DNA of 64,000 bases from Pseudomonadota bacterium (lineage in GTDB: Bacteria > Pseudomonadota > Gammaproteobacteria > QQUJ01). Below the pieces are notes generated by a model, which worked only from the letters and a program-made list of their open reading frames with translations, searched no databases and had not been told where the DNA came from. The translations under genes and the position numbers were made by a program. The stretch spans positions 1 to 64,000 of the forward strand of contig QQUJ01000016.1 in the NCBI GenBank assembly GCA_008501635.1, read 5' to 3'. Position 1 is the first letter of the stretch, and every line of letters starts with the position of its first letter. This document shows, in pieces, positions 52,462 to 58,456 of this stretch.

Positions 52462-53985
52462 CTATGTCGTCAATGAAGCCGGGGAACCTCTCCCCTCTTT
52501 GCCCCTGAATGAATAGCACGCTTTTGCCACGCGCGCGATCCCTTCCCGAATCTGATCTTCCGGTACCGACGAATAGCCAATCAATAAGACGCGATCGCCG
52601 CCCCAGTCACCATTGCAATTCAACGCCGCCCCTGTGGTCAGACTATAGATCCCCACCCCGACGTCTTCGGCAATCTTCTGCACATGGGTCGCCTTTGGAA
52701 AATCTGGAGGTAGATGCCAGGCTAAATGCATACCACCCTCCAGTCCGGTCAGCCGCACCTCCCCAAAATTGGCTCGTAGCGATTCCAGGAGACAGTCGCG
52801 ACGACTCAGATAGGTTCGTCGAATGCGCCGAAGGTGCCTCTCGTAGCTTCCGCTCGAGATGAAATCAGCCAGGGTGGCCTGATCGAGCCAGGCATGGCCA
52901 TTGTCGTGCAGCGTTCTCACCATCCGGGCCGATTCGACCAACTCCGGGGGAACCACCAGATAGCCGAGTCGTATGCCTGCACCAATCGATTTCGAGAACG
53001 TACCTATATAAATCACACATCCGTGCACATCCTGCCCCGCCAGGGCGATCAGCGGGGATCCCTTATGGCGAAAATCACTGTCATAATCGTCCTCGATCAG
53101 ATAGGCCCCAGTCTTCCATGCCCAATCAAGCAACCGCAAGCGCCGCTCCAGAGAGAGGGTGACGCCAAGCGGGTACTGATGCGACGGAGTTACGTAGGCC
53201 AGACCGATCGGCTCATCGGGGAGATGCGCGGTATCGATTCCCCGGTCATCGACCGGCACCGCCCGAAGTTTGGCGCCGTAACTCTCGAATACGAAGGCCG
53301 CCCCCTGGTAGCAGGGCTCTTCGATCATCACCGTGGTTCCCTTCTCGATCAAAAGGCGCGCCACCAGGTTGAGTGCCGCCTGGCTTCCGTTGACTACGAT
53401 CACCTGGTCCGGTTCAACCTTGATACCGCGCGCTGGTCCCAGAAAGTCGGCTATCGCACAGCGCAGTTTCTGAAGACCAATGGGGTCACCGTACTCTGTC
53501 AGGTTAGCGCCCGCAAAGGTGAGATTGTGGAGCAGTCGTCGCCGCCATGACTTGGTGGGGAAGGAGTGCGGGTCAGGTCGACCCACCCAGAAATCGATCG
53601 CAAGCCGGTGGCGATTGGGGCTGACCACCGGGTGAGTGCGCCCCTTGAAAAGCGCAGGATGGCGGCTTGCCTGGCGTTCCATCGCGTCCCCTGAGCGCAA
53701 CGCATCGGGTCTCATTGATGGCGACACTGACGCATCGGGCAAATCGGGGCTCACGATGGTCCCGACCGTCGGGCGGCTTTCCAGGTATCCCTCCGCTACC
53801 AGACGGTCGTAGGCGACCAATACCGTATTGCGGGATACGCTGAGCTGCTGACTCAATACCCGTGTACCCGGCACTACTTCACCTGGTTTGAGGAGTCCGT
53901 TAAGAATGAGATTGCGAATCGCCTCGAAAAGTTGGGCTTGCAAGGTCATCCCGTTGCCCGGTTCGAGTTTCACAGGAAGTTGCAT
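52462..53985 (-). CDS. MocR-family regulator (GntR helix-turn-helix fused to aminotransferase-like domain)
   Basis: The 507-residue protein has an N-terminal GntR winged helix (GTRVLSQQLSVSRNTVLVAY near residues 40-60) and a C-terminal class I aminotransferase fold that should hold PLP through Lys332 (YIGTFSKSIGAG). MocR proteins usually sense PLP or an amino-compound-PLP adduct. AGGAGG lies 5 bases before the ATG at 53985. The gene is divergent from the hydroxylamine-oxidation genes, with a large inverted repeat between, so control of those genes is a fair guess. Confidence 0.92.
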   Translation of the reverse strand: MQLPVKLEPGNGMTLQAQLFEAIRNLILNGLLKPGEVVPGTRVLSQQLSVSRNTVLVAYDRLVAEGYLESRPTVGTIVSPDLPDASVSPSMRPDALRSGDAMERQASRHPALFKGRTHPVVSPNRHRLAIDFWVGRPDPHSFPTKSWRRRLLHNLTFAGANLTEYGDPIGLQKLRCAIADFLGPARGIKVEPDQVIVVNGSQAALNLVARLLIEKGTTVMIEEPCYQGAAFVFESYGAKLRAVPVDDRGIDTAHLPDEPIGLAYVTPSHQYPLGVTLSLERRLRLLDWAWKTGAYLIEDDYDSDFRHKGSPLIALAGQDVHGCVIYIGTFSKSIGAGIRLGYLVVPPELVESARMVRTLHDNGHAWLDQATLADFISSGSYERHLRRIRRTYLSRRDCLLESLRANFGEVRLTGLEGGMHLAWHLPPDFPKATHVQKIAEDVGVGIYSLTTGAALNCNGDWGGDRVLLIGYSSVPEDQIREGIARVAKACYSFRGKEGRGSPASLTT

Positions 53986-54363
53986 GGTTACCTCCTGATG
54001 TTCTTGCAAATGATAGGTACGAATGTGAATGCGGTGACTACTGGTACTATAGCCTATATAAATCTGGATACGTATGTAGTACCAGTCAATTCATCGTTGA
54101 TGGCACCACTCCCAGTACAGAATCAACGCAGCATGGGGTTCCAGCCGTGAAGAGACGTCCACAGTTCGGGCACTCATCGATACCTGTTGTGCTGTGCTGA
54201 AGACACCGGTGGACCCAATCTATTTTTACCGTATGGATCTTCAGGTTTAGTCACCAACCGATATCGTATTTCAGAAGTTGGAGTTCCGCGCAATAACACT
54301 TTTAAGTCAGATCCGGCCATCAACGGGCTGCGGTACTTAGGGTTACGCAACGGGGAGAGGGCA
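53986..54363. other. Divergent intergenic region MocR / haoA
   Basis: These 378 bases hold the inverted repeat at 54040-54086, an AT-rich core between its arms that could carry promoters, and about 270 bases of leader before haoA. An open frame runs in from 54187, but it shows no family resemblance before the signal peptide starting at 54364. No RNA gene is recognised. Confidence 0.5.
54040..54086. promoter_or_regulatory. Inverted-repeat operator candidate between MocR and hao genes
   Basis: ACTGGTACTA (54040-54049) and its exact complement TAGTACCAGT (54077-54086) flank an AT-rich core, TATAGCCTATATAAAT and on, that could include a -10 element. CTGG-type half-sites are common in MocR operators. 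The repeat is about 55 bases upstream of the MocR start codon and about 280 from haoA. Confidence 0.55.
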
Positions 54364-56112
54364 ATGACCAAAACTTTGATGAATCGACTCCTGGTTTCGA
54401 CAGTTGCACTCTGTATAGGCTTATTGGGCATGGCTGGTAATGCGATGGCCGATGTTCCGAAAGAAACGTACGACGCCTTGGGTATCAGCAAATCCGCCTC
54501 ACCCAAGGAGTTGTTCGATGCATTGAAAAAACGCTACCACGATCCTGCGCAGGGCGCGGGCAAAGGAAAATTTGGTGACTTGTGGGAACCTATTCCCATG
54601 AGCCGATACTTCGACCCGGGCACGTTTTACAAACCACCGAGCACCGTCAAGGAGGTTAACAGCCGCGAGGAGTGTGTTGAGTGTCATAAGGAAGAAACGC
54701 CCGGCTGGGTGCAGATGTGGAAGAATAGCCCGCACGCCAATCTCAGCGAGATTCGCAAACTCAAAGCGGATGACCCTCGCCATTATAAAAAGGCCAAGCT
54801 CGAAGAGATCGAAAAAAACCTCCGCTCCATAGGCAAGCTGGGTCGTGACGAACCGCTGAAAGAGGTTGGCTGTATCGACTGTCACGTCAACATTAACACC
54901 GCAAAAAAGGCGGACCATACCAAGGACCTGCGTCTCCCTGATGCCGCAGTCTGCGGCACCTGCCACCTGCAGGAGTTCGCCGAGAGGGAATCGGAGCGGG
55001 ATACCGCCATCTGGCCGAACGATGAATGGCCGAAAGGCCGCCCGTCGCACGCCCTCGACTACCAGGCCAATGTCGAGACCGGCATCTGGGCCGGTATGGC
55101 GGAACGCGAGATCGCCGAAGGCTGTACGGGTTGCCATTACAACCAGAACAAGTGTGACGGCTGTCATACTCGCCACGAATTCTCCGTGGTCGAGGCACGC
55201 AAGCCGGAGGCGTGCGCCCGCTGTCACAACGGCATCGACCACGATAACAACGCGGCCTATGCCTTATCCAAACACGGTACGATCTACCAGACCAGAGGGG
55301 ATGAGTGGAACTGGAATGTGCCGCTTAAGGATGCATTCGAGAAGGGCGGTCAGACGGCTCCCACCTGTGCCTCCTGCCACATGGAATACAAGGGCAAGTA
55401 TGGCCACAATGTGGTCCGCAAGGTGCGCTGGGCCAACTATCCCGGCGCTCCGGGTATTGCTGAAAACATCACGTCCGACTGGGCTGATAAACGCAAGGAG
55501 GCGTGGGTGGAAACCTGCAACCAGTGCCATTCCGAACGGTTTGCACGCGCCTACCTGGAGATGATCGATAATGCCACGCTGGCGGGAGTCGCCAAATATC
55601 AGGAGGCCGCCGCCGTGGTCGGGAAGCTGTACGATGATGGCCTGCTACCGGGACAGAAGACCAACCGTCCGGCCCCGCCCAAACCGGACAGTCTGGACAG
55701 CGGCCCCGCCCAGTTCTACCAGCTCATGTGGGCCAAGGGCAACAACCCATCGGTAGTGGACCGGAAACTGATAGAGATGGGTGAAAACGAACTGGCACTT
55801 CTCCACGTATCAGTTGCCCACGTCAACTATGGAGGATGGACCTACACAACTGGCTGGGAGCCACTGCTGGGTACGTACACGGATATCATGCAGGCCGATA
55901 CCGAACTGCGTGAAAAAGCGGCGCTTATGAAACGGGTCGATGCACTCGAAGCAGGCAAACGCGCCTCACTTGGAATCAACCTCGATACGTTTGAGGAGAA
56001 GGTTGCAGTAAGCGGACTCGGCGGCATGATGCTACTGACCGGTGGACTGCTGGGCTGGCGGCGCCGCAAGAGCGCAAACAGTCGCGGCGAGAGCCAGGAG
56101 CCCCTGGAATAA
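54364..56112 (+). CDS. haoA: Octaheme hydroxylamine oxidoreductase-type cytochrome c
   Basis: HAO oxidises hydroxylamine in the periplasm and passes electrons to c-type cytochromes. The 582-residue product has a signal peptide (residues 1-28) and eight CxxCH haem sites starting at 104, 170, 197, 254, 264, 284, 335 and 385, with the 254/264 pair (CTGCH, CDGCH) in the region of the catalytic haem. Segment 488-498 ([11 protein letters not shown]) holds tyrosines that could include the one cross-linked to the P460 haem. A C-terminal hydrophobic helix near 555-567 ending WRRRK suggests a membrane anchor. The ATG at 54364 is chosen for its signal peptide and the upstream GGGGAGAGG. First of haoA-haoB-cycA-cycB. 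Confidence 0.9.
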
Positions 56113-57159
56113 ATGGGTGTGCCACTGTCGGGAACCCTGCCTGCGGGTACAGGTTCGCCTAAGGCCCTCCCCATCGCCAGTATCGTACTGGCGATGGGGG
56201 GGCTTCTGTTGCTCGGCTGGGTGACATGGTCCGCGCTCAAGCCCAATCCCCTGCACTACCGGTATCAGCTGATCGCCGAAGGTCCCGTGGCGGAATTTCC
56301 CGACTTGGGACTTCCGGATCGGCCGGCATTGTCGATTCGCAAGTACGAAATACGTGCGGATGGCCATGACCAACCCCTGGCGAGTCTGCATGTCGGGCGG
56401 AACGCGCAACTGGATAGGGTGTTGCTCGACTGGCAAAATCAGCTCACCGAACCGCTGTTCACCCTCACCGCTTCGGCCCCCGAACTAGCGGCCCTGACAA
56501 CTGCCATCGCCACGCACCTGCCGAGGGATAGCATGCTGCTGGGGTGGTGGGACACCACCCGCCGGCTCAAGTTGCTCAGCGATATCGAAACACCCTTTGA
56601 TGAAAACCTCGCACTACCCTTGTTGTTACCCACTGCGTGGAGCGACCAACGAGGAACAATCGAAACCGCAGAACAGCGCTTTTGGCAGGTTCCGGACGAC
56701 AGCCCCAGCGCCGCGGCGTTCGAGCGTTTCCAGGAGGCGCTGCTCGCCGATGAAGCCACTGCGGTTGGGATATTTCGGGAGCTGGCGGGCAACGACAACG
56801 AGGTTTACCTGGCGCTACATCTTTCCGATGCCTTCAAGTTGGGCGCCCTGCAGCCCGAGCGATTCGGGATCGGCTATCGCGATTTCCCCAATACCGGCGA
56901 CCTTCACTCGACCATTCGCAATATCAAGAATTGGTTGCGCGAACAGGGGTACAAGACCTATACCGCGGAGAATCGGGATGCCAACGTTGTGCGCGTCTAT
57001 TTTCTCACCAACGCGGCATCTGAAAACGCCCTCATCGCCCAAGCCCTGCCATTCACCAAATCGCAATCAATGGATCTGAAAATCATGCGGGTCGTCTACC
57101 AGCACCTAGGGTATTGGGTCTACAAAATACCGGCGGCAGACAGGGGAACCGACTCATGA
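56113..57159 (+). CDS. haoB: Hydroxylamine oxidation protein HaoB
   Basis: The 348-residue product has one N-terminal transmembrane segment (residues about 18-40) and a large periplasmic domain. It has no haem motif. Position between haoA and a c554-type gene, length, and stretches such as SMLLGWWDTTRRLKLLSDIE near residue 139 fit HaoB (ORF2 of ammonia oxidisers), whose role is unknown. It starts right after the haoA stop and overlaps the next gene by 4 bases. Confidence 0.85.
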   Translation: MGVPLSGTLPAGTGSPKALPIASIVLAMGGLLLLGWVTWSALKPNPLHYRYQLIAEGPVAEFPDLGLPDRPALSIRKYEIRADGHDQPLASLHVGRNAQLDRVLLDWQNQLTEPLFTLTASAPELAALTTAIATHLPRDSMLLGWWDTTRRLKLLSDIETPFDENLALPLLLPTAWSDQRGTIETAEQRFWQVPDDSPSAAAFERFQEALLADEATAVGIFRELAGNDNEVYLALHLSDAFKLGALQPERFGIGYRDFPNTGDLHSTIRNIKNWLREQGYKTYTAENRDANVVRVYFLTNAASENALIAQALPFTKSQSMDLKIMRVVYQHLGYWVYKIPAADRGTDS

Positions 57160-57863
57160 TGTTGTCGTATCGGCGTAGGGCATTGTTCGGCCTGGTCTTT
57201 CTTTTGGGAGCCTCCTCGGTCATCGCCAAGGACGATATCCCGTATGATGGCCGCAAGAAATGCAGTGGCTGTCACAAGAGCCAGTACCAGTCCTGGAAAG
57301 AGACCGGGCATGCCAACGCGCTCGACTCGCTTAAACCGGGCGTGAAAACCGAGGCGAAGAAGAAAGCGAAACTGGACCCGGACAAGGACTACAGTAACGA
57401 CAAGGACTGTGTGGCATGCCATGTTACCGGCTTCGAGAAGGAGGGCGGCTACACGATTGACGACCCTAGCATCTACACGGTCGGGGTCGGCTGTGAGTCG
57501 TGTCACGGGCCGGGCTCGGAGTATCGGCTGATTCACCGCACGGCGTCCCGGAAATTCGATAGCAAGGGAAAGGCCACCCCGCGCAGCGTGCTCGAGGAGG
57601 CGGGAGAGGAGTTTCAGTTCATCGAACGCTGCAACGCCTGTCATATGAGCTACGAGGGATCGCCTTGGCCCAATAGCAGCAAACCCTATACACCGTTCAC
57701 CCCCGAGGTGGACCCCAAATATACCTTCGATTTTGACAAGGCCGTGCGCAACCATGATGCGATGCACCAGCACTACAAACTGGTCGGTGTCTTTACGGGT
57801 CCGCCACTGCCGCCTTTCCATCAGGAATTCCAGAAGGCAGCGCAACCGGCCAGCGAGGAGTAG
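57156..57863 (+). CDS. cycA: Tetraheme cytochrome c554-type protein
   Basis: The 235-residue product has a signal peptide (to about residue 24) and four CxxCH motifs at 36, 85, 113 and 159. The spacing and the DYSNDKDCVACHVTGFEKEG stretch fit cytochrome c554, the electron acceptor of HAO in Nitrosomonas. The start at 57156 (ATGA overlap with haoB) has AGGGGA at 8 bases. It is the shuttle between HaoA and CycB. Confidence 0.9.
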   Translation: MMLSYRRRALFGLVFLLGASSVIAKDDIPYDGRKKCSGCHKSQYQSWKETGHANALDSLKPGVKTEAKKKAKLDPDKDYSNDKDCVACHVTGFEKEGGYTIDDPSIYTVGVGCESCHGPGSEYRLIHRTASRKFDSKGKATPRSVLEEAGEEFQFIERCNACHMSYEGSPWPNSSKPYTPFTPEVDPKYTFDFDKAVRNHDAMHQHYKLVGVFTGPPLPPFHQEFQKAAQPASEE

Positions 57864-57871
57864 ACAGGCAG

Positions 57872-58456
57872 ATGGGGTGGCTGGGAAACCTGTGGCGCTC
57901 GGTAGCGATCCACCGTTTCGTGATTTTCTCGACGGTGGTGGCAACGGTGTTGCTGATAGGTGCGGGTGTCGGTGGTATGACGGCCCTGTCCACAACCACA
58001 TTCTGCACCTCATGTCATTCCATGTCGTACCCCTACGACGAGCTCCAGAAATCGAATCACTATGGGGTGATGGGTGCCGATCCGGGGTGCGGAGATTGCC
58101 ATGTTCCACGGGGACTCGAGAATCTCCATCTGGCCGTCGCGACCCACCTCGTGGACGGCGCGCGAGAAGTCTATTTCGAACTCACGGGCGACTATTCAGA
58201 CATCAAAAAATTCAACCAGCGCCGACTGGAGATGGCGCACTATGCGCGCATGAACCTCAAGCGCTGGGACAGCGTCACCTGCCGATACTGTCACAAGAAC
58301 CCGAGGCCATTCGGTGAGGCAAAAAAAGAGCATGAGAAAATGGTGACTCAAGGTGCGACTTGCATCGATTGTCATCAGAACCTGGTTCACAAGGAGGTGG
58401 AAGAAACGGATCTTGATGCAAGTCTCGCCCGGGGGGAGATGGTATTAAAGGAATAA
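57872..58456 (+). CDS. cycB: NapC/NirT-type tetraheme cytochrome (cM552-like quinone reductase)
   Basis: The 194-residue protein has one N-terminal membrane anchor (residues about 16-38) and four CxxCH sites at 45, 73, 137 and 164, in the NapC/NirT/NrfH layout. In ammonia oxidisers the corresponding protein, cM552, passes electrons from c554 to quinone. It begins 9 bases after cycA. No clear terminator follows. Confidence 0.9.
   Translation: MGWLGNLWRSVAIHRFVIFSTVVATVLLIGAGVGGMTALSTTTFCTSCHSMSYPYDELQKSNHYGVMGADPGCGDCHVPRGLENLHLAVATHLVDGAREVYFELTGDYSDIKKFNQRRLEMAHYARMNLKRWDSVTCRYCHKNPRPFGEAKKEHEKMVTQGATCIDCHQNLVHKEVEETDLDASLARGEMVLKE

Follow-up and report, generated by a model that had tools for sequence, protein, structure and literature searches.

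The MocR-family regulator DnfR governs the dirammox dnf cluster of Alcaligenes (ammonia to hydroxylamine to N2), and its ligand has not been established (PMC12575085, PMC11440038). In Nitrosococcus oceani, the genes Noc0891–Noc0895 encode a GntR regulator, HaoA, HaoB, CycA and CycB, the GntR gene is located between cytL and haoA, and hydroxylamine or ammonium raises haoB and cycB transcript levels about tenfold (PMC3772326). The adjacency of the GntR gene and haoA is on record in these data, without discussion there; the same paper stated in 2013 that the regulation of amo and hao genes lacked clear conceptual understanding (PMC3772326). As for the DNA sites of MocR regulators, most motifs consist of two or three repeated boxes and include a TGG or TGT group (PMC5320631). 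The link is not discussed in any paper found by literature searches on MocR together with hydroxylamine oxidoreductase (HAO), or on HAO in Ruegeria pomeroyi.

The window analyzed here, a stretch of 64,000 nucleotides from a gammaproteobacterial genome (G000), contains a MocR-family gene on the minus strand (52462..53985, 507 aa; alternative start codon TTG at 54009) and, on the plus strand, four genes in the order described for ammonia oxidisers. These are haoA for an octaheme hydroxylamine oxidoreductase (54364..56112), haoB (56113..57159; NCBIfam TIGR04392, 340 bits over a cut-off of 200), cycA for a cytochrome c554-type tetraheme protein (57156..57863; Pfam Cytochrome_C554, NCBIfam NF043010 with 344 bits, below the cut-off of 400), and cycB for a quinone-linked cytochrome of the cM552 / NapC-NirT type (57872..58456; Pfam Cytochrom_NNT). 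Among solved structures, HaoA is closest to the HAO entries 6m0p and 1fgj (E ~1e-247); it has eight CxxCH motifs, and the tyrosine of its GGWTY motif aligns with the cross-link Tyr467 of 1fgj, features that identify it, as judged from sequence, as a true HAO. The locus resembles that of N. oceani in having a GntR regulator beside the same four genes and differs in that N. oceani is an ammonia oxidiser. No AmoA/PmoA match (PF02461) was found in G000, which is 98% complete and does not show the AmoA of a canonical ammonia oxidiser; the same search was positive in G322, G135, and G248. As a source of hydroxylamine, ammonia monooxygenase (AMO) was not found in the MocR–hao genomes searched (G000, G119, G083, G207, and G341; G369, G539, and R. 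pomeroyi lay outside the search), and the diiron oxygenase PF11583, which we take to be the AurF family to which DnfA belongs, had no match in seven genomes (G000 and six further MocR–hao genomes). The idea that the MocR marks only hao clusters without AMO was dropped, because the GntR gene of the ammonia oxidiser N. oceani adjoins haoA.

Two further features of the hao genes were observed. The 5' end of haoB carries a perfect 14-bp hairpin (56169-56199; CCCCATCGCCAGTA-TCG-TACTGGCGATGGGG), and no hairpin of similar strength was seen in haoB of most other loci compared. In addition, a contig labelled Candidatus Anammoxibacter (L003) carries a haoA and a haoB that are 72% and 50% identical to those of the window, possibly as a result of a binning error or of transfer.

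According to the Pfam analysis (GntR, Aminotran_1_2), the window MocR consists of an N-terminal GntR winged helix (PF00392, residues 16-78) and a C-terminal fold-type-I aminotransferase-like domain (PF00155, residues 143-444) that matches GabR structures. Bacillus subtilis GabR has the same two-domain architecture. The pyridoxal phosphate (PLP) lysine is the K of GTFSKS, and sequence comparison shows that the equivalents of GabR K312, D279, Y281, Y205, and R319, that is, the PLP lysine and the ring contacts, are conserved. The GabR arginines R207 and R430, which contact the GABA carboxylate, are replaced by G and T, respectively. Most of the unrelated MocRs compared likewise lack both arginines; their loss therefore argues only against a GABA-like binding mode and was discounted as specific evidence for hydroxylamine. 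The hao-linked MocRs differ from GabR not only in these two residues but also in that all eight have Cys at the position of Gly204, next to the PLP-stacking Tyr205. Position 315 is Gly in all eight. The same Cys is found in nearly all members of the MocR clade, whose signature in the window protein is PCYQGA.

The mocR (53985, minus strand) and haoA (54364) ATG codons are divergent and separated by an intergenic region of 378 bp. As the first-pass annotation had claimed, two exactly complementary arms, ACTGGTACTA (54040-54049) and TAGTACCAGT (54077-54086), lie between these genes with a gap of 27 bases. The core between the arms had also been described as AT-rich and promoter-like; it is indeed AT-rich (18 of 27 bases), but a sigma-70 consensus scan of the region detected no promoter-like site (shuffle mean 1.1). 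A terminator scan of the region found nothing. The repeat occurs once in the 3.9 Mb genome. Inverted repeats of 10 bp with a gap of at most 40 were present in 0.9% of dinucleotide shuffles of the intergenic region (n = 3000), and several inverted repeats of equal quality are scattered across the window. Taken alone, the repeat is only mildly unusual and constitutes modest evidence, so the case is carried by the comparative evidence.

Each arm contains an 8-bp palindrome, TGGYRCCA, with one mismatch: box 1, TGGTACTA, in the left arm (54042..54049) and box 2, TAGTACCA, in the right arm (54077..54084). A third box, TGGCACCA (54101..54108), matches the palindrome exactly and was absent from the first-pass annotation. 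The boxes are located 57-123 bp from the mocR start and 263-322 bp from haoA. The DnfR site, reportedly TGGTCTGT, has a TGGT core in common with them.

An unbiased motif search was performed with 768 palindromic 8-mers in seven lineages, using 400 shuffles as a control. TGGYRCCA ranked first, with 10 sites in six of the seven lineages (shuffle maxima, 4 lineages and 6 sites). When the motif was fixed and applied to held-out clade members without hao, three exact sites were found against 0.15 expected (P ~0.0003); G393 accounts for two of these, both in its MocR promoter region. Control regions upstream of hao without an adjacent MocR contained no TGGYRCCA site in 1.9 kb; the sites at hao-less clade MocRs and their absence at MocR-less hao genes indicate that the motif follows the MocR and not hao. 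The first-pass annotation had noted that MocR proteins often bind CTGG-type half-sites and suggested a search for the same repeat in mocR–hao relatives; the half-sites of the repeat are instances of a motif that accompanies this MocR clade, both with hao and at a MocR elsewhere. The three predicted boxes of the window, with a motif conserved along the clade, have the composition of a MocR-type operator of repeated TGG/TGT boxes. The number and spacing of boxes vary between lineages: most boxes in the other lineages are 116-160 bp distant, those of the window being farther from haoA; a composite TGGCNCCATTGGYAYCA is common to G341, G369, and G197; R. pomeroyi has weak sites upstream of its hao; and no exact TGGYRCCA was found for the clade members in G511, G710, and G083b.

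It could be argued that the 10-bp repeat arose by chance or is the site of an unrelated regulator, and hence is no MocR operator, given how often the shuffled regions yield repeats as good and how many are present in the window. This seems improbable, since the half-site ranked first in the unbiased cross-lineage search and recurs in held-out clade members. From these sequence comparisons, the adjacent MocR very probably binds the boxes. Binding might serve self-regulation only, with hao under separate control, a reading in line with the position of the window boxes nearer to the mocR start than to haoA and with the presence of the motif without hao in G393 and G197. We consider it unlikely, because in G341 and G369, where mocR sits downstream of the cluster, exact boxes are located upstream of hao, whereas the stretch just before mocR has only one-mismatch matches at a chance-like level. 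Control of hao by the MocR appears fairly likely.

The neighbourhood of MocR and hao is also conserved. A clade MocR adjoins haoA in seven further genomes, in which the MocRs beside haoA are 46-62% identical to that of the window. Loss of the neighbourhood in all relatives, which the first-pass annotation had named as counting against its proposal, is not what was seen. Three gene orders were found: divergent mocR and haoA, as in the window (G119, G083, and G207); mocR downstream on the same strand, either after cycB (G341 and G369) or on the Ruegeria pomeroyi megaplasmid in the order haoA-haoB-mocR-ccm genes-hemA; and mocR convergent with hao (G539). Preservation of the link through three gene orders argues for function. 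Among 369 class genomes, hao is present in five of the six genomes with the MocR and in 10 genomes overall (Fisher test, 2.7e-8, which ignores the relatedness of genomes, the samples being small and related). No such MocR was seen near the hao loci of G322 (three copies), G135, G248, and G216/G315 in the stretches read.

In the phylogenetic tree, the hao-linked MocRs fall in one clade (100% bootstrap; support values from 100/99 to 100/100) that includes hao-less members. The MocR closest to that of the window belongs to G197, a genome in which no hao was detected; the link can therefore break, or the regulator has other targets. Some other clade MocRs adjoin genes for a UrtA-like binding protein, a molybdopterin oxidoreductase, or cupin/ABM proteins. 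The earlier overall reading, that the MocR acts at the repeat on hao, is accordingly strengthened by the conserved neighbourhood and the clade-linked motif and is qualified by these members of the clade.

Several loci of the clade show features of their own. A second clade MocR of G083 (L038:5713-11092) lies beside a c-type cytochrome gene and a molybdopterin oxidoreductase gene with a Tat-like signal, and G207 (L039) also has a second MocR of the clade; neither locus contains an exact TGGYRCCA box. In G393 (L053:8535-11958), the MocR gene is divergent from a UrtA-like binding-protein gene with, by reading of the sequence, two exact boxes between them, and a ferredoxin-like frame follows. In two different classes (L052:9078-12426 and L054:7503-10793), the MocRs are flanked by genes for an ABM-domain protein with CxxC pairs and a double-cupin protein, possibly a separate conserved module. 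In G197 (L051:8359-12487), a HupE/UreJ gene and what looks by eye like a PQQ-dependent dehydrogenase gene are found near mocR, and a gene-poor stretch of 900 bp downstream of mocR contains a composite box.

As for the ligand, the window MocR scores 420 bits with the NCBIfam PdxR model (cut-off 320), its best NCBIfam model. This score, together with the other genes adjoining clade relatives, is consistent with a reading in which the MocR uses the boxes as its operator and targets hao, but responds to PLP itself or to an organic amine; hao would then follow amine or vitamin B6 status rather than hydroxylamine. Such a ligand is a serious possibility, though with somewhat less than an even chance: the window MocR lacks both GabR arginines that contact the GABA carboxylate, and, in a comparison of gene neighbourhoods, the conserved neighbour in eight genomes is hao and not the vitamin B6 (PLP synthesis) genes expected of a PdxR.

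We consider it likely that the repeat arms are two boxes of a three-box operator (TGGTACTA, TAGTACCA, and TGGCACCA) for the adjacent MocR, with hydroxylamine as the leading ligand candidate. In the proposed mechanism, the MocR would bind the TGGYRCCA boxes between mocR and haoA, repress its own gene and, on arrival of the ligand, turn hao on. As a strong nucleophile, hydroxylamine converts PLP into an oxime, and this reaction with the MocR-bound PLP is the candidate sensing step. Direct sensing of this kind would plausibly fit the conserved PLP pocket; as a claim about the window MocR it is tentative. Equally speculative is the wider proposal that a distinct MocR clade, marked by Cys204 and Gly315, senses hydroxylamine by a PLP oxime and switches HAO operons through TGGYRCCA in proteobacteria without AMO.

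DnfR likewise is a MocR governing a hydroxylamine-metabolism cluster (PMC12575085), although it controls dnfABC and the window MocR adjoins a haem HAO. The hydroxylamine-sensing idea would link the two regulators and can now be put to the test with a single protein and a 90-bp fragment; if true, the MocR would be a PLP regulator whose ligand is an inorganic nitrogen compound. The analysis identifies a MocR clade and a DNA site that accompany hao in both Gammaproteobacteria and Alphaproteobacteria, also in organisms where AMO was not found. The same regulator stands beside hydroxylamine-oxidising genes in distantly related bacteria, and the repeat probably belongs to a DNA switch with which this vitamin-B6-dependent protein regulates the adjacent genes of the hydroxylamine-oxidising enzyme.
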